NCBI GenBank assembly: GCA_022561335.1 | Contig: JADFRL010000002.1 | Location: forward strand, 1 to 57,898 | Length of the DNA: 57,898 bases | Origin: Patescibacteria group bacterium | GTDB lineage: Bacteria; Patescibacteriota; Minisyncoccia; Phycocordibacterales; JACZSL01 | Direction of reading: 5' to 3' | In this document: piece by piece, positions 48,394 to 57,898 of the stretch | Position numbering within the stretch: position 1 is the first letter of the stretch | Layout of the letters: each line of letters starts with the position of its first letter | Program-made: the position numbers and the translations under genes | The notes under the pieces: model-generated | Seen by the model: only the letters and a program-made list of their open reading frames with translations | Database searches by the model: none | What the model was told of the DNA's origin: nothing

Positions 48394-50325
48394 ATGGGAA
48401 AAATTATCGGAATAGATTTAGGAACCACTAACTCTGCCGTAGCAGTTATCGAAGGTGGTGAGCCAAAAATAATTGAGAATGCCGAAGGAGCGCGAACCAC
48501 GCCTTCAGTAGTGGCGCTTTCGAAAGCCGGAGAAAATCTCTCGGGGCTTATTGCAAAACGACAAGCGGTGACCAATCCACAAAATACCATCTCTGGGATA
48601 AAACGATTTATAGGACATCGTTTCGACGAAAAAGCAGTACAGAAGGAAAAGAAAATTGTGCCGTACGCTGTTAAAAAAGCTTCTGATGGGGGAGTACTCG
48701 TTGTCATGGGAGATAAAGATTATCGTCCGGAAGAAATTTCAGCAATGATTCTACAGAAATTGAAGCGAGATGCCGAGGCAAAAATAGGGGAAACAATTAC
48801 TGAGGCTGTCATTACGGTTCCGGCGTACTTCAACGATGCTCAACGAAAAGCAACTAAAGATGCGGGAAGCATTGCGGGTCTCGATGTCAAGAGAATAATA
48901 AATGAACCTACAGCAGCCGCTCTGGCCTATGGCTTCAACAAGAAAAAGGACGAGAAGATAGTGGTGTTTGATTTTGGCGGCGGAACTTTTGATATCTCTG
49001 TGCTTGAGGTGGGGGATGACGTTATTGAAGTGAAATCGACTGATGGTGATTATCGTATGGGAGGCAAGGATATTGATCAGAATATAATTCGCTGGATTGC
49101 AGATGAATTTAAAAAGGAGTCCGGCATAGATATAACGACTGATCCTTTGGCCCTACAGCGTCTGGATGAAGCAGCGGAAAAAGCTAAACACGAACTCTCT
49201 ACGACTACTGAGACAGAGATAAATATACCGTTTATTACTTCCGACGCCTCTGGTCCTAAACATCTGTTGCTCAAAATGAGCCGGGCAACCCTTGAAGAAC
49301 TGGCACGTGATTATATCGATCGTTCAATTAAAATAACAAAGAGAGCTATGGAGAGTTCTTCATTTAGCATATCCGATATTGATGAAATAATTCTTGTGGG
49401 AGGACAGACGCGAATGCCGGCTATTCAGAAGGCTGTAAAGGATTACTTTGGAAAGGAGCCTAATCAGACAATTAACCCCGACGAAGTGGTAGCTATGGGA
49501 GCAGCCATTCAAGCAGGAATATTCCAGGGAGACGTGAAAGATATTTTGCTTCTCGACGTCATTCCTCTTTCCTTGAGTATAGAAACTCTTGGAAGTGTCT
49601 CTACAAAACTTATTGAACGCAATACTACCATCCCGACTTCAAAGACTCAGACGTTTTCAACTGCAGCCGATAATCAGACATCGGTTGAAATTCATGTTAT
49701 TCAGGGAGAGCGAGCTATGGCGGTTGACAACAAAAGTCTTGGGAGATTCATTCTCGACGGTATTCCCCCATCTGCACGAGGCATGCCTCAGATAGCGGTG
49801 ACCTTTGATATAGATGCAGATGGTATTTTGAGCGTTACAGCAAAAGATAAAGCATCCGGAAAAGAGCAATCAATTCGCATTGAAGCCCAATCCAGTTTAA
49901 CTGAAGAAGAGATCGAGCGCATGAAGAGGGATGCTGAGTCACACGTGGAGGAAGATAAAAAAATAAAGGAAACAACGGAAGCTCGGAATCTTGCTGATCA
50001 GCTTGTCTATACTGCCGAAAAATCTATAAAAGATAATGCAGATAAAATTTCAGGGGAATTAAAGAAAACGGTTCAAGAGAAAATCAAAGCTGTTAAAAGT
50101 GTAAAGGATGGTGAAGATAGGGAAGCCATCAAAGAGGCTACGGAGGCTTTATCTTCGCAGCTTCAGAAGATAGGTGAGGCGGTCTATGAGAAAGCTCAAC
50201 CCCAACCAGGCGCCAAAGGAACAGAAGATTCCAACTCAGATAACAGTATTCGTGATGCTGAATTTAAGGAGAAAGACGGCGAAGGAGACGGCGGAAACTC
50301 TGACAGCAACACTGATAAAAAATAA
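48394..50325 (+). CDS. dnaK: molecular chaperone DnaK
   Basis: [45 protein letters not shown]. Confidence 0.98.
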
Positions 50326-50445
50326 ATAGTATATTGCACAGCTATCGTTGATTTTTTGATAGGGTTTGCAATAATAGCAGTAGGCTTATTAGCGACACAG
50401 AACGAGCGAAATGGAGAAGTTTCACTTTTTCATTTCCGAGCCGAG

Positions 50446-50463
50446 CCTGCCTGCGCAGGCAGG
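50446..50463. repeat. intergenic palindromic repeat, copy 2
   Basis: CCTGCCTGCGCAGGCAGG 18-nt perfect palindrome followed by GAGCT. Confidence 0.65.
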
Positions 50464-50580
50464 GAGCTCATAATAGGTAAATACCCGAGAAAAGGTGCAT
50501 TGCACTTTTCTCTCTAACTACAAGACGGTATAAGCAAGAGGGCTTGCCCTAAGGGACCTTTACTACTCTAATTAATCGCA

Positions 50581-51639
50581 ATGTCAAAAGATTATTATAC
50601 AATTCTTGGGGTGCAAAAAAGTGCCAATGCCGAAGAAATTAAGAAGGCATTTCGAAAGCTTGCACATAAATATCATCCGGATAAAAACAACGGCGACCTG
50701 GTAAAATTCAAAGAAATAAGTGAAGCGTATAGCGTCCTGTCGAATGAGAAACGCCGGGCTGAATATGATTCGTACGGCCGTGTGTTCAATGAAGGAGGAG
50801 GATCTCCATTTGAGGGATTTGATTTTTCAAGTGCAGGGTTCAATGCTCAAGATTTTGCCAACATTGATTTCTCTGATATATTTGGGGATATTTTTGGAGG
50901 TGCGCGAAGTAGAATACGACGTGGACGTGACATTTCGATTGACATCGAGCTTACGTTGAGAGAGGCTATCTTTGGAGGTGAAAAGCGTGTGCTGATTACA
51001 AAGGTTTCCCTTTGCGGCACCTGCAGTGGCAGTGGCGCCAAGATAGAGACCGAACTGGGCACCTGTACCGTCTGCAATGGCAAGGGAAATATCCATGAAA
51101 ATAAACGTTCTCTGCTGGGCACCTTTACTACCATGAGGGCGTGTGGAGCGTGCTATGGGAAAGGTACGGTACCTAAACAGAAGTGTTCAGCATGCAAGGG
51201 GCATGGCGTGCTCAGAAAAGAAGAAGAAATTATTATCGCCGTGCCTGCAAATATAAACGACGGAGAGATGGTCCGCATGAGCGGGGCAGGCGAAGCTGTC
51301 TCTGCAGGAACGCCAGGAGACCTTTATGTTAAGCTTCACGTTGAGAGTGACCCTCGCTTTAGGCGTGAGGGACACAATATAGTAACCAATCTTACCATTA
51401 AACTGACCGACGCAATGCTTGGCAAAGAGTATACCGTTCCGTCTTTTGATGGGGATCTCTCAGTTAAAATTCCATCAGGCGCAACGCCAGGTGAGATGCT
51501 CCGAGTGCGCGGCAAAGGAGCTCCAAAAGGAGGCGGTCAGCGCGGAGATCTTCTTATAAAAGTAAACATAACACTTCCCAAGAAATTATCACGAAAAGCA
51601 AGAAGACTTGTTGAGGAACTGCAAAACGAAGGAATTTAA
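50581..51639 (+). CDS. dnaJ: molecular chaperone DnaJ
   Basis: J domain YKYHPDK-type (AHKYHPDKNNGD) and four CxxCxGxG zinc motifs. Confidence 0.96.
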   Translation: MSKDYYTILGVQKSANAEEIKKAFRKLAHKYHPDKNNGDLVKFKEISEAYSVLSNEKRRAEYDSYGRVFNEGGGSPFEGFDFSSAGFNAQDFANIDFSDIFGDIFGGARSRIRRGRDISIDIELTLREAIFGGEKRVLITKVSLCGTCSGSGAKIETELGTCTVCNGKGNIHENKRSLLGTFTTMRACGACYGKGTVPKQKCSACKGHGVLRKEEEIIIAVPANINDGEMVRMSGAGEAVSAGTPGDLYVKLHVESDPRFRREGHNIVTNLTIKLTDAMLGKEYTVPSFDGDLSVKIPSGATPGEMLRVRGKGAPKGGGQRGDLLIKVNITLPKKLSRKARRLVEELQNEGI

Positions 51640-51671
51640 TCGCTCTTAATTATAAATGCGCATAATGGAAT

Positions 51672-52199
51672 ATGGAATTCGGCTTTTCCACATTAGCACA
51701 GAGCGCACGAGCATATACTGCCACCACTTCAATTGAATTAATGCTGTTTGGTGGGATTTTCCTATTAATGCTTGCCTGGGGACTTGCATATGGAAAGTAT
51801 AGACTCAGCACTTTGATTATTTCTTTATATGCGGGTCTGACGCCATTCTTGCTGTTTCCTTATATCGATTCCGTCCCGTGGAATCCGGGACTACTTTTTA
51901 ATAAAATTGAAGTGCTGCCTGTGGTGTTATTCGCAGTTTTAGTTTTCTTTATATATTTCACACTAGTACCAATAATTGAATGTCAATTTTCTCGTGGGAA
52001 AATAAGAAGGTGGTTTGAAGCGGCAGTCTTAAGCCTTTCTACGACAATAACTCTCACAGCATCTCTTTATTATATTGGCATTTCTCAAACTATCATCGCA
52101 CCGCAATCACTTTTAGACTCTCTTTTCTTGGAGCCAGTCTATCTTTTCTGGTGGTTTTTAATTCCTCTTGTAGGACTGTATATCACAAAAGACTCTTAA
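51672..52199 (+). CDS. hypothetical membrane protein
   Basis: 175 aa, multiple hydrophobic helices. Confidence 0.6.
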   Translation: MEFGFSTLAQSARAYTATTSIELMLFGGIFLLMLAWGLAYGKYRLSTLIISLYAGLTPFLLFPYIDSVPWNPGLLFNKIEVLPVVLFAVLVFFIYFTLVPIIECQFSRGKIRRWFEAAVLSLSTTITLTASLYYIGISQTIIAPQSLLDSLFLEPVYLFWWFLIPLVGLYITKDS

Positions 52200-52205
52200 T
52201 AATAT

Positions 52206-52889
52206 ATGAATAAACTGTATTTTATTTCACCCTTGATCTTACAGACTGCTATTTGGCCGATTACATGGCTTCTTTTTAATTTTTTTCTGCATCTTAAGAT
52301 ACAAGGACTGGAGAACTTCAAGCACCTTCCGCGCGGCGTTATTTTTGCTTCAAATCACTCAAGTGAATGGGATGTTATTTTGATACCCGCAAGTCTTCCT
52401 TTTTTATCTTCCTTTATGCCGATGTTTTACGTAGCAAGTGAAGACAAGGAATTTAAACATCCTAGATTTGGTTGGAAAAAGTATCTATACGGAGGTTTCT
52501 TTTTTAAAGCTTGGGGGGCATATCCAATAACGAAGGGGAAGCAAAACTACGACAGTGCGCTTAAGACTCACATTCGACTCTTACAGCAAAAGCGGAGCCT
52601 GTCAGTTTTTCCAGAAGGCGGAATACGTTCAGATAACATACCGCAAACTGCACATGGAGGGGTTTCGTTTCTCGCTCATAAAACGGGGGTCCCTATAATA
52701 CCTGTTGCAATAAACGGCATATCCAAGATTACATGTACAGAATTTATTTTACGAAAACGAGACGTAACAATTTACTTTGGAAAACCACTATACTCAAAAG
52801 ATATTTTTGATGACTCAAAAAATGTGAATATTCGAGACTATAAAGATGCCGCCAAAAGAGTGATGAAAGGTATATATAATCAAGTGTAA
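52206..52889 (+). CDS. plsC: 1-acyl-sn-glycerol-3-phosphate acyltransferase-like
   Basis: NHSSEWD (HX4D), VFPEGGIRSD. Confidence 0.85.
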   Translation: MNKLYFISPLILQTAIWPITWLLFNFFLHLKIQGLENFKHLPRGVIFASNHSSEWDVILIPASLPFLSSFMPMFYVASEDKEFKHPRFGWKKYLYGGFFFKAWGAYPITKGKQNYDSALKTHIRLLQQKRSLSVFPEGGIRSDNIPQTAHGGVSFLAHKTGVPIIPVAINGISKITCTEFILRKRDVTIYFGKPLYSKDIFDDSKNVNIRDYKDAAKRVMKGIYNQV

Positions 52890-52998
52890 AAGTTCAATCG
52901 GGAGTATATTTTTTAACATAACAACTTTTATCTTGTTCTACAAGGAATAAGTTATAATATTGTTACTACTCAATCGTATGTAGCTAAGTAATCAATAT

Positions 52999-53874
52999 AT
53001 GGAACCTATCGTTGATAAAGATCCACATCTTAATTATGAAGTTAACACTGTATTTAAAAAAGTACTTAATGTTTTTCTTATCCCTGTATTAAATGCTATT
53101 CCGTCTTCTTTTCAAAAATATATAAAAAAAACACATAAATCAGCTGAAGAAATTATTGAACACGCAACAACCCATCAAGCACTTGAAGTGTTATATAGAA
53201 AAGGTGATGAAAAGTATTCCAAGTCACTCTTCCACAGATTTTTCCATACAGTATGGTTCAATACAAATAACTCAAAAGCTGTAAGAAATCGCCTGCGGCT
53301 CACAAAAAGAGAAATAAAACGGTGTATTGATACATTAATAACTCAACGTAAAGATATACATATTTTAAGTATTGCTTCTGGCTCAGCTCGTTCTATAATC
53401 GAAGTACTTGCTGATATTAGGAACTATAATGGTGTCCTCGTGTCAGTTACTTTTTTAGACAAAGACCCTGTTGCACTCGAATACAGTAAGAATCTTGCCA
53501 AAGAACTTGATACAGTATTTGACTTAACATGGACAAACAGTACAGTGAATAATTTTTTTAATAATCTCACTGCAGCGCAGAAATTCAATATTATAGAAAT
53601 GGTGGGGCTAGTAGATTATTTCGACAATAACAAAACTACGTTAATCTTCTCATCCATATTTGATCACCTTGATGTTAACGGATTTTTAGTTACCGCCAAC
53701 ATCAATCATAATAGCGAGCAGAAATTTGTAACTGATGCTGTCGGATGGAAAATGAAATATAGATCTGCAGAATATCTTGCCGTGCTCATCACTAAAGCTG
53801 GATTTAATTCCGACAAGATGGATATATATTATGAACCCTTAAAAATACATTGTGTTATTACAGCATCTAAATAA
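52999..53874 (+). CDS. class I SAM-dependent methyltransferase-like protein
   Basis: HILSIASGSARSIIEVLA (motif I), VTFLDKDPVALEYSKNLA (acidic motif II). Confidence 0.7.
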   Translation: MEPIVDKDPHLNYEVNTVFKKVLNVFLIPVLNAIPSSFQKYIKKTHKSAEEIIEHATTHQALEVLYRKGDEKYSKSLFHRFFHTVWFNTNNSKAVRNRLRLTKREIKRCIDTLITQRKDIHILSIASGSARSIIEVLADIRNYNGVLVSVTFLDKDPVALEYSKNLAKELDTVFDLTWTNSTVNNFFNNLTAAQKFNIIEMVGLVDYFDNNKTTLIFSSIFDHLDVNGFLVTANINHNSEQKFVTDAVGWKMKYRSAEYLAVLITKAGFNSDKMDIYYEPLKIHCVITASK

Positions 53875-53877
53875 TTT

Positions 53878-55482
53878 ATGGAAATATTTGCAATTTCGGG
53901 ACTTATAAATGGAATCGTTGCACTTGGTTTTGGTACTCTAGTCTTTTTTAAAAACAGTAAGGCATTGATAAATGTCTTATTTTTCCTTATGACGTTAGCT
54001 CTTACACTTTGGGCGTTTAGTTATTGGCAGTGGATGTCTAGTGGTGATGCTACAACGGCAATTTTTTGGGTAAGAGTACTATCGATTGGTTCACTTCTTA
54101 TTCCTGTCTTTTTCTTTCATTGGGTATTAGCAGTATTAAAAGAGATACGCGGTGTAAAAAAAATAGTCCTTGTATTTGCATACGTATTCGTATTAGCAAG
54201 TTTATCTTTTTCTTTTTCTCAATATTTTATCATAGACGTAGAACAAAAATTATATTTTCGTTTTTGGCCAAACCCGGGAATTGTTTATACTCTTTATTTC
54301 TTTGTTATATATATTGGTCTTATACTTTACTCTCTGTACTTACTCATAGCTCGCTTTCTTACTTCAGTTGGAGAACATAAAAACCAAATCCTATACATTA
54401 TTTTAGGAGCTATCTTTGGTTTCGGAGGTGGTTTGAGCAACTTTTTTTTGTGGTATGACATTCCCATACCCCCCTATGGCAATTTCTTAGTTGTTTTATT
54501 CCCTTTCTTTCTTAGTTACTCAATAGTTAAATATCGCTTTTTTAATATAAAGACGATTGCTACTGAGATTTTAGTTGTCTTTATCCTTATCACACTTTTT
54601 ATACAAATCTTACTTGCAAACTCATTATTCGAGATGATACTGCGGGGAACTTTTTTTACTCTTGTTGCAATTCTTGGATATCTTCTAATACAAAGCGTAT
54701 ATCGAGAAGTACAGACACGTGAAGAAATTGAAATGCTTGCAGAGGATCTTGAAAAGGCAAATGTGCGTCTGAAAGAGCTTGATCGTCTTAAATCAGAATT
54801 TGTTTCCATTGCTTCCCATCAATTACGGAGCCCTCTCACTTCCATAGGGGGATATGCATCACTTATCCTTGAAGGCTCATTTGGAGAGGTTTCAAAAGCA
54901 GTTAAAGAAGCGGTAAAGAAAATTTTTGACTCAAGCGGCCTCATGATGACTTCTGTTCAGGATTTCCTTGATGTGTCTCGCATTGAACAAGGCAAAATGG
55001 ACTACCATTTTGAAATTTTTGATATAAGGAAATTGACTGAGCTTGTCGTAGAAGAGTTGCGCCCCACAGCTCAAAAAAAGGGTCTTACCCTCTCTTTCAA
55101 CGCAAGTGAAAATGGTAGGTATAATATCAAGGCTGACTACAGCAAAATAAAACAGGTTTTGAACAACTTAATAGATAATGCGATAAAGTACACTGTGAAA
55201 GGCTCCGTAACTGTTGGTGTGTCTAAAAAGGAGGAGAGTAAAAAGGTGCTTATAGCAATTGCAGATACTGGAATGGGAATATCAAAAGAAACATTACCGA
55301 AACTGTTTGATAAATTTGTGCGCGCACGCAATGCCAATACTGTAAATGTTACTGGCACGGGACTTGGCTTGTACGTTGTAAAGGAGATGATCAAAGCCCA
55401 TAAAGGAAAAGTCTGGGCAGAATCAGATGGGGAGGGAAGTGGAGCTACTTTCTATGTAGAACTCAATGCCCATCAAGATTGA
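53878..55482 (+). CDS. sensor histidine kinase with 7TM-type N-terminus
   Basis: Multi-TM N-term; SIASHQLRSPLTSIGGYASL (HisKA); NLIDNAIKYT, ADTGMGIS, GTGLGLYVVKEMI. Confidence 0.9.
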   Translation: MEIFAISGLINGIVALGFGTLVFFKNSKALINVLFFLMTLALTLWAFSYWQWMSSGDATTAIFWVRVLSIGSLLIPVFFFHWVLAVLKEIRGVKKIVLVFAYVFVLASLSFSFSQYFIIDVEQKLYFRFWPNPGIVYTLYFFVIYIGLILYSLYLLIARFLTSVGEHKNQILYIILGAIFGFGGGLSNFFLWYDIPIPPYGNFLVVLFPFFLSYSIVKYRFFNIKTIATEILVVFILITLFIQILLANSLFEMILRGTFFTLVAILGYLLIQSVYREVQTREEIEMLAEDLEKANVRLKELDRLKSEFVSIASHQLRSPLTSIGGYASLILEGSFGEVSKAVKEAVKKIFDSSGLMMTSVQDFLDVSRIEQGKMDYHFEIFDIRKLTELVVEELRPTAQKKGLTLSFNASENGRYNIKADYSKIKQVLNNLIDNAIKYTVKGSVTVGVSKKEESKKVLIAIADTGMGISKETLPKLFDKFVRARNANTVNVTGTGLGLYVVKEMIKAHKGKVWAESDGEGSGATFYVELNAHQD

Positions 55483-55600
55483 CAAAATTAGTTCCTTCTA
55501 TAATGCTTTAAAATAAGTGCCTGAAACATTATTCGTATCACTTGATAAGGAATGAGCAAAGAAAAATGATATTCGAGAAAGTCCGCTCAGGCGCGCGTAT

Positions 55601-56053
55601 TTGCTTCTAAACGTGAATAATCCAACTGAACTTTTCAATACATATTTGATAGAAGATCAGAAAATAGTTACATCTAAAATTTCTGATTATCATGATCCAA
55701 AACTTATTACAAACAAAGTAAGAAGCATATTAGAAAAGGTTGATGCTCGTAAGATAACAAAGGAAGAGCAACACGAACGGCGCTTAATATTATGGCTCTG
55801 GTATCACCACGCGATCAGCTATGCCGTGTGGGGATATAAAGATAAAAGACGAGCTCAGAAATACTCATCATTGGCTCTTAAATACCATCCTACGAATCAT
55901 CCCAATAAAATTACTCGCTTATTATATTTACTCGTACGTGATCGATTTGCAGAGGCAAATACATGGGCAAAAACTATCAAAAAAGAAAATTTAGGGCGTA
56001 CAACTGCATTTAAATTATTGAAATTCTACAAAAAAGGAGGATTTTTTAATTAA
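55601..56053 (+). CDS. hypothetical helical protein, paralog A flanking the RiPP-like precursor
   Basis: WYHHAISYAVWGYKDKRRAQ...HPTNHPNKITRLLYLLVRD; start may be GTG at 55613. Confidence 0.75.
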   Translation: MLLNVNNPTELFNTYLIEDQKIVTSKISDYHDPKLITNKVRSILEKVDARKITKEEQHERRLILWLWYHHAISYAVWGYKDKRRAQKYSSLALKYHPTNHPNKITRLLYLLVRDRFAEANTWAKTIKKENLGRTTAFKLLKFYKKGGFFN

Positions 56054-56098
56054 AAATGCCTAACTTTACTGTATTCAGAGTTTGTAGTATTCTGCAGA

Positions 56099-56119
56099 CA
56101 GAGCTGTAACTTAGCTCTG
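56099..56119 (+). promoter_or_regulatory. leader hairpin upstream of the precursor ORF
   Basis: CAGAGCT-GTAACTT-AGCTCTG, 12 nt before the SD. Confidence 0.45.
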
Positions 56120-56131
56120 CTAATTAACCTG

Positions 56132-56144
56132 AAAGGAGGTGATC
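56132..56144 (+). promoter_or_regulatory. extended Shine-Dalgarno
   Basis: AAAGGAGGTGATC, complementary to the canonical bacterial 16S rRNA 3' end, upstream of ATG at 56150. Confidence 0.8.
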
Positions 56145-56149
56145 TCTTA

Positions 56150-56308
56150 ATGAAAGACATTAAAGAGTTCGAAATAAACGAACGCACACCGCTTATGCTA
56201 CGGCGGATCGAGGAGAAGCCAGCGGTGACTCACCCAACCACGAACAACATGACGGTTGTGACGACTCCAGGTATGGAGCCCGAAATGCATGACCAAAAGG
56301 AAGATTAA
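56150..56308 (+). CDS. putative graspetide (ATP-grasp RiPP) precursor peptide
   Basis: 52 aa MKDIKEFEINERTPLMLRRIEEKPAVTHPTTNNMTVVTTPGMEPEMHDQKED; extended SD, downstream terminator, Thr-rich then Glu/Asp-rich C-terminal half, near an MvdD-like ligase. Confidence 0.6.
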   Translation: MKDIKEFEINERTPLMLRRIEEKPAVTHPTTNNMTVVTTPGMEPEMHDQKED

Positions 56309-56346
56309 CAGCGCGAAGGGTAGTTTTCTCCCTTTGTGCTCCAATA

Positions 56347-56376
56347 AAAGCCGCGATGAGTTTTCATCGCGGCTTT
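56347..56376 (+). terminator. terminator-like hairpin after the precursor ORF
   Basis: AAAGCCGCGATGA-GTTT-TCATCGCGGCTTT, 13-bp perfect stem. Confidence 0.8.
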
Positions 56377-56414
56377 ACTTATCAAATTATATTATGCTCT
56401 GCTATAATCAAAAT

Positions 56415-56915
56415 ATGGGAAGTAAAAAGAAGATTAACATTAAAAAAAGTCCACTTAAAGAAGCATATATATTGCTAGATGCAAAAGATCCCGGGGGACT
56501 CGATACTAAGTATAGAGAGAAAGATCAAATTCTCATGAAATCAGTTTCATGGGATTATAAGAGCCCAACACTTTTAATTCATAAAATAAAAGATATTTTG
56601 GAGCACGCTGAAATAAGTGGACTTTCAGCAGACGAGAAATATTGGCGCCTACACATATTGTGGTCATGGTATCATCACGCGATCAGTTGTGCCGTCTGGC
56701 GCTATCATGACCAAGCAAAAGCGCAGGTGTTTGCAAAGCAGGCCCTTATATATCAACCGGAAAATCATCCGAACAAAATTACGCGCCTTCTGTACTTTCT
56801 TGTGCATGATAAGCTGGCGGAGGCTGAAACATGGCAAAAAGGCATTACTACAGAACCAGAAAAAACTACGGCTATACGTCTGATGGAAGAATACAAAATT
56901 AATGGTCTTTTTTGA
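56415..56915 (+). CDS. hypothetical helical protein, paralog B
   Basis: WYHHAISCAVWRYHDQAKAQ...QPENHPNKITRLLYFLVHD; ATG at 56415, TATAAT at 56403-56408. Confidence 0.78.
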   Translation: MGSKKKINIKKSPLKEAYILLDAKDPGGLDTKYREKDQILMKSVSWDYKSPTLLIHKIKDILEHAEISGLSADEKYWRLHILWSWYHHAISCAVWRYHDQAKAQVFAKQALIYQPENHPNKITRLLYFLVHDKLAEAETWQKGITTEPEKTTAIRLMEEYKINGLF

Positions 56916-56932
56916 CAGCTTTTGGTCGTAAA

Positions 56933-56967
56933 AAAAAGCCGCGATAATGAAATCTCTGCGGCTTTTT
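56933..56967. terminator. bidirectional terminator between convergent genes
   Basis: AAAAAGCCGC ... GCGGCTTTTT. Confidence 0.75.
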
Positions 56968-56970
56968 CCC

Positions 56971-57898
56971 TTATACTTTCTTTCTTTCAAAAAGTGACTC
57001 GAGCATATCTGCTACGGCCTCAGGTATAGGAAGCTTAGCAAAGTCTGCAATCCAACCCCACTGTCCGGTTGGATTGACCTCTAAGAAGACAAAGTCTTCC
57101 TCGGGGGTCTCGATGAGATCTATCGCGCCGTATCGTAATCCAATTTTTTCCATGAAGCGCAGCAATTTCTGCTGAATATTTGCAGGTAGGTGAGATTGAA
57201 CGTGCGCCACATGCTCAAAGTCATAGTGCCGCCAGTCTACCTTTGTTGCTTCACTTGCTTGAGAATCTATTCTGCAAGACAGAACACGATTTCCAATTAC
57301 CATAACCCTGTGCTCGCAGTGTTTCTTTATGTATTATTGAGAGAAAATTGGGCACGCACGAATTGCTATACTTCTTTTAATCAACTCCTTGTGAGAAAAC
57401 CGTTGGGAGTAGAGAAAGTATCTTCCCTTATCGTCCAGACGAACATAACCAATTGACTTCAGCAAAAGTCCGTCGTGGTCATCAGAAAAGATTGTAACAC
57501 TCTCTGGATCGTTGCTTATCAATGTACGTGGTGCGATTAGACCGCACTGTTGTGCAATTAGCTGCTGATAGAGTTTGTTGCTTGCAAGAAAATCGACGGT
57601 CTCTTTCCGATTTACCCAAGAACATTCAAGGGTGGAAAGCAGAGAGCGGACAGCAGTCCGCGACTCGTTCTCAACGAATCGATCTTCAAGAGAGGAGCAC
57701 GTCGCTGTTGAGGAAACAGCACTCCCGCGTACATACCATGCAACATCAATGTCCGAGATAGGCAAGCGGAAACTCTCAGGCTCTCCCGTGTCCAATCTAA
57801 AGACATCGACGAAGCCAACAATATGACCTCCTTCATCCAAAGCTACACTAATCCTTTCTTCACTAGGGAAGCGCGAAGGGTCGAAAACATATATACAT
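56971..57898 (-). pseudogene. MvdC/MvdD-like graspetide ATP-grasp ligase, interrupted by an in-frame TAA and truncated by the window edge
   Basis: One open frame CIYVFDPSRFPSEERISVALDEGGHIVGF...IDVAWYVRGS...SWVNRKETVDFLASNKLYQQLIAQQCGLIAPRTLISNDPE...IFSQ[TAA]YIKKHCEHRVMVIGNRVLSCRIDSQ...DWRHYD...LRYGAIDLIE...FLEVNPTGQWGWIADF; the two track ORFs share one frame (57840-57303=537, divisible by 3). Confidence 0.8.

Follow-up and report, generated by a model that had tools for sequence, protein, structure and literature searches.

The window, by which we mean the whole 57,898-nucleotide stretch analysed here, is an entire contig (G000:C25:1-57898) of a 667-kb genome in 36 contigs, and its right edge is the contig end. 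Four genes make up the locus at this edge, in the order helical A (+), precursor (+), helical B (+) and ligase (-) (Table 1). The ligase is convergent with the precursor and helical B lies in between, so the two do not form one operon. The features on which the first-pass annotation had built its case are all there: the sequence blocks that it called diagnostic of a microviridin-type ligase lie in the minus-strand frame 57897-56971, the 52-aa ORF has the Shine-Dalgarno sequence in front and a hairpin behind it, and the two helical proteins are paralogues, 48% identical. Translation from the ATG at 55552 would yield only MSKEK*, this codon being offset by one base from the open body of helical A; a frameshift at the start is therefore probable, unless a non-ATG codon serves as the start. 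The most likely start of helical B is the ATG at 56415, not 56289. As for its possible promoter, a consensus scan found such sites to be no commoner in the region than in shuffled sequence.

A HisKA_7TM histidine kinase gene lies immediately upstream of helical A (window 53878-55482), and a similar-looking kinase is found about 3 kb from the related locus of GWA1_47_8. Genes for dnaK, dnaJ and a plsC-like protein stand upstream of the locus both here (window 48394-55482) and in Taylorbacteria 45_15b (L035:4354-9026), which points to a shared chromosomal site although the two genomes are of different families.

Table 1. Genes and signals of the locus, in window coordinates
Feature	Position	Strand	Remarks
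Helical paralogue A	55552..56053	+	body open 55556-56053
Shine-Dalgarno sequence	56135..56143	+	GGAGGTGAT, 5' of precursor
Graspetide precursor	56150..56308	+	52 aa
Stable hairpin	56347..56376	+	AAAGCCGCGATGA-GTTT-TCATCGCGGCTTT, 3' of precursor; terminator-like, T tract weak
Possible promoter of helical B	56379..56408	+	TTATCA-18-TATAAT, extended -10; weak
Helical paralogue B	56415..56915	+	166 aa
Hairpin	56930..56967		between convergent helical B and ligase; A / T tracts flank its two sides
Graspetide-type ATP-grasp ligase	56971..57898	-	assigned by families and phylogeny; 5' end lost at contig end
In-frame TAA in ligase	57334..57336	-	residue 188, before the DxR and ExN (Mg-binding) regions

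Family and fold of the ligase

Read through its in-frame stop, the ligase has its best NCBIfam match in TIGR04187 (4e-56), followed by MvdC (8e-52) and MvdD (1e-49). The frame had been proposed to be an MvdC/MvdD-type ligase, and the profile search indeed places it among the graspetide enzymes, with TIGR04187 ahead of these two, and not in a non-peptide ligase family. None of the curated NCBIfam cut-offs is reached (190 of 350 bits for TIGR04187, 176 of 425 for MvdC and 169 of 475 for MvdD); the window copy is truncated, and an intact Taylorbacteria orthologue likewise stays under the TIGR04187 cut-off, with 173 bits. The nearest PDB entries by sequence are AMdnB, MdnB, MdnC and CdnC. The intact orthologue of GWA1_47_8 (L052), 62% identical to the window ligase, gave a model with a mean pLDDT of 82, and the best 32 PDB fold matches of this model are all graspetide ligases (MdnC, CdnC, AMdnB, PruB, MdnB and PsnB), with ArgX, LysX and RimK ranking after them. 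In the tree, the window ligase and six relatives form one clade (support 100/100), and DWR, K136, K176, E302 and N304 (numbering of the first alignment row) are invariant in all seven, the window frame included; a DxR motif ('DFR') has been described as critical for activity (PMC13097080). The ligase thus belongs to the graspetide synthetase family at the level of homology and fold. No relatives of it were confirmed among viral contigs.

The enzyme could instead add amino acids to a peptide or protein in the manner of RimK or LysX, with the 52-aa peptide as its substrate or regulator. There is a weak RimK-family match (1.9e-13), and the RimK and LysX folds come next in the structure list; however, the E-values of the graspetide families are lower than that of RimK by some 40 orders of magnitude, the leading fold matches are graspetide ligases without exception, and the graspetide donor/acceptor pattern of the core is kept in every orthologous peptide (below). 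We consider such an amino-acid adder very improbable, and treat the enzyme as a graspetide synthetase in what follows.

The precursor peptide and its pairing with the ligase

The 52-aa peptide carries the block TPLMLRR at residues 13-19 and, in its C-terminal part, T35-V-V-T38-T39...E45...D48...D52. Aligning the seven orthologues brings out two blocks, [TSA]P[LI][ML]LRR and [NH][MF]T[VI]V[TS]T...PE..D...D, joined by a linker that varies in length, and this pattern supports their assignment as putative leader and core. The donors at 35, 38 (T/S) and 39 and the acids at 45, 48 and 52 are kept in 7/7 orthologues. With its spacing of T-x3-T-x8-D-x3-D the core fits the signature TxxxTx(6-10)Dx(1-4)D, which by alignment all seven peptides share; of the 275 small ORFs in the window that encode 40-100 aa, the precursor alone fits it. 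Compared with Phhx(1,2)h, the leader motif of CPR branch 1 (PMC8939145), PLMLRRI/PLLLRRM has the proline and the hydrophobic residues but is not a strict fit, since the last hydrophobic residue is preceded by three residues where the motif allows one or two. No Pfam or NCBIfam family matched the peptide, and it has no detectable similarity to the one TgmA precursor with which it was compared. Its conservation marks the 52-aa ORF as a true precursor.

Orthologues of the ligase and of the peptide occur together at seven loci, namely the window, five other CPR loci and one in an Alphaproteobacteria MAG. A profile built from the window and Taylorbacteria peptides, run against 398 genomes of the order, found two further precursors (in G346 and G278), each adjoining an orthologous ligase, and one more match, seemingly below threshold, at E 0.005. 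The order-wide scan for the ligase (E <= 1e-60, over 500 bits) returned the same 4/398 genomes as that for the precursor, together with one distant match of 212 bits; by our own arithmetic, the coincidence in the two non-seed genomes alone would arise by chance about once in 78,000. Scanning GTDB contigs for the ligase added Kaiserbacteria, Gw_Eff_129 and the Alphaproteobacteria MAG, and in each of them the peptide adjoins the ligase. In a class-wide draw of 387 genomes the precursor was found in the window genome (G000) alone, and the more distant CPR ligases that were inspected (~25-40% identity) have no peptide of this type nearby. The conservation and co-occurrence that the first-pass annotation had expected of a true precursor are therefore borne out. 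Together these loci form a well-bounded orthologous set: a ligase and a precursor, often with a TPR-like protein beside them, distributed across several lineages of CPR bacteria and one element that is probably mobile. Little is known of the peptide chemistry of these genome-reduced bacteria, and their host interactions are largely unexplored; the set adds to this knowledge.

In the Alphaproteobacteria MAG the stretch L058:2745-9546 holds the ligase, the precursor and genes for integrase-like, AlpA-like, DUF6624-like and VirB4/TraD-like ATPase proteins (names read from the sequence), and the G+C content falls there from ~65% to 46-57%. Judging from its gene content and composition, this locus is probably carried by an integrative element. 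Some other graspetide-type ligases were also seen in CPR genomes. One, in Wolfebacteria and a near relative, is accompanied by candidate precursors (L060:3709-3918 and L061:3666-3893) with leader IPFPVRFAER and core PEIYDD.TTVDTTGQYED. RS_9_47 also encodes a second ligase of graspetide type, a distant one, next to a DUF6624 protein (L053:3763-5261), and a similar pair occurs in G342 (L089).

The interrupted ligase and the helical neighbours

At the position of the in-frame TAA, five of the relatives have Glu and one has Thr. The frame also runs off the contig end, so that ~28 N-terminal residues are missing; the ligase had rightly been sensed as broken at first reading. The ligase genes of all six relatives are intact. 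Apart from the TAA, the window ligase keeps 75/76 of the residues invariant among them, so the lesion either arose recently or reflects an error in the sequence. A protein terminated at the TAA would presumably be inactive, since it would lack both DWR and ExN.

These defects could mean that the locus in this strain is a decaying, non-functional remnant, with a nonsense change in the ligase and a frameshift near the start of helical A, whose sole upstream ATG is out of frame; the two lesions lie within 2.3 kb. However, the ligase is otherwise well conserved, the precursor and helical B look intact, and errors of sequence, which may occur at the contig ends of an assembly, are about equally likely. 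We put the remnant explanation, which bears on function in this genome alone and not on the identity of the locus, at just short of an even chance. The locus is real, with this copy probably silent or mis-sequenced.

Searches of Pfam and NCBIfam gave no match above cut-off for the helical family, and those of PHROGs, PADLOC and, by sequence, the PDB gave none. The model of helical B consists entirely of helices (pLDDT 94). Its fold search gave no PDB match significant by E-value, and the best TM-score among the matches listed is that of the FKBP51 TPR domain (7l7i_C; TM 0.58, probability 1.00). From this model, the helical proteins look TPR-like.

In 5/6 CPR loci a member of the family adjoins the precursor. 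The window and Kaiserbacteria have two copies each, the latter repeating the window order helical-precursor-helical-ligase exactly, and GWA1_47_8, Gw_Eff_129 and RS_9_47 have one, upstream of the precursor (that of RS_9_47 is a contig-end fragment). Taylorbacteria has a TPR_2 protein where helical B would stand, which showed no similarity to the helical family in a profile comparison, and no helical protein was seen at the Alphaproteobacteria locus. Six further genomes (G024, G203, G184, G359, G382 and G023) have stand-alone copies, mostly among housekeeping genes, so the family is not strictly tied to graspetides. The copy in G359 (L087:8320-8805), among translation genes, is likewise interrupted by a TAA.

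The helical proteins could have nothing to do with the genes beside them, or serve immunity or regulation and not biosynthesis; the stand-alone copies, and the Taylorbacteria and Alphaproteobacteria loci that lack a recognizable member, are in keeping with this. Against it, the family is found in 3/4 ligase genomes versus only 6/394 others, and it does stand beside the precursor in most of the CPR loci, flanking it on both sides in two distant genomes. We give this explanation a fair hearing but somewhat less than even weight, slightly below that of the remnant. That the flanking proteins are dedicated partners, which bind the leader or stabilize the ligase, is a more tentative suggestion that we hold to be rather unlikely.

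Proposed pathway and comparison with known systems

We regard it as highly probable that the locus encodes a graspetide pathway of a CPR bacterium, with leader-guided ester cross-linking of the 52-aa peptide. Families, fold, orthology and co-conservation are the observed basis of this reading, and we infer the chemistry, the ring number, export, the target and the part played by the helical proteins. The peptide would be made as leader plus core, and the P[LI][ML]LRR block of the leader would dock on the ATP-grasp ligase. Using ATP, the ligase would phosphorylate Glu/Asp side chains of the core, and the activated residues would be joined as omega-esters to the hydroxyls of core Thr/Ser. The strict conservation of three hydroxyls (35, 38, 39) and three acids (45, 48, 52) suggests up to three cross-links and so makes a clear prediction, a mass change of up to -54 Da. 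Going by their position and co-occurrence, the TPR-like proteins may hold the peptide or the ligase. The interrupted ligase would mean either that this strain has recently lost a working pathway or that the stop is an error in the sequence. A DUF2268 protease, seen beside the locus of one relative (L056), is absent from this genome.

Compared with microviridin MvdC/MvdD (MdnC/MdnB), the ligase has the same fold and ATP-grasp residues, and leader-guided cross-linking is predicted here as well; unlike in that system, the leader lacks PFFARFL, the core is different and the scores lie far under the MvdC/MvdD equivalog cut-offs.

The locus can also be compared with those of CPR bacteria, whose graspetide branches 1 and 2 were described by Makarova et al. 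in 2022 (PMC8939145). Branch 1 comprises ten precursor clusters, most of them with a TxxxTx(6-10)Dx(1-4)D core; its loci often have TPR-repeat proteins of unclear role nearby, and some have metallopeptidases (PMC8939145). Going by that published description, our locus resembles branch 1 in its CPR host, in a precursor near the ligase, in the core signature and in its TPR proteins, and the DUF2268 gene beside L056 parallels the branch 1 metallopeptidases (PMC8939145). In contrast, branch 1 precursors are near-identical within a cluster and without similarity between clusters (PMC8939145), whereas here a single family with 44-56% identity spans several lineages; the Cluster 23 proteins discussed in that study (PMC8939145) were looked for in the window but not identified there. 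Graspetide loci of CPR bacteria that combine TPR proteins with the same core signature have thus been known since 2022 (PMC8939145) and the helical pair looks TPR-like, which weakens the idea of a 'new subclass' put forward in the first-pass annotation. The rest of its interpretation, that is, graspetide identity, the leader/core split and a CPR (Patescibacteria) host, is supported by families, fold, phylogeny and co-conservation.

More recently, Carter et al. (2026) described two graspetide groups with many candidate-phyla members (PMC13097080), and rosaritide, which is made by the TIGR04187 enzyme MirB, has three macrolactones and requires a partner protein (PMC13097080). The window locus shares with TgmB/TIGR04187 synthetases, MirB included, the best NCBIfam model and the combination of three hydroxyl donors with three acidic acceptors (PMC13097080); unlike TgmB-type systems, it has a precursor with no detectable similarity to the TgmA tested, and no O-methyltransferase was seen in it. 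The dedicated partner of the rosaritide system is a precedent for the helical proteins, although that system is actinobacterial and its MirC is SurA-like with an RRE-like domain, whereas the window proteins are TPR-like (PMC13097080). Were the helical proteins indeed such partners, partner-dependent graspetide synthesis would exist in a second form, with a partner of different structure, in genome-reduced CPR bacteria.
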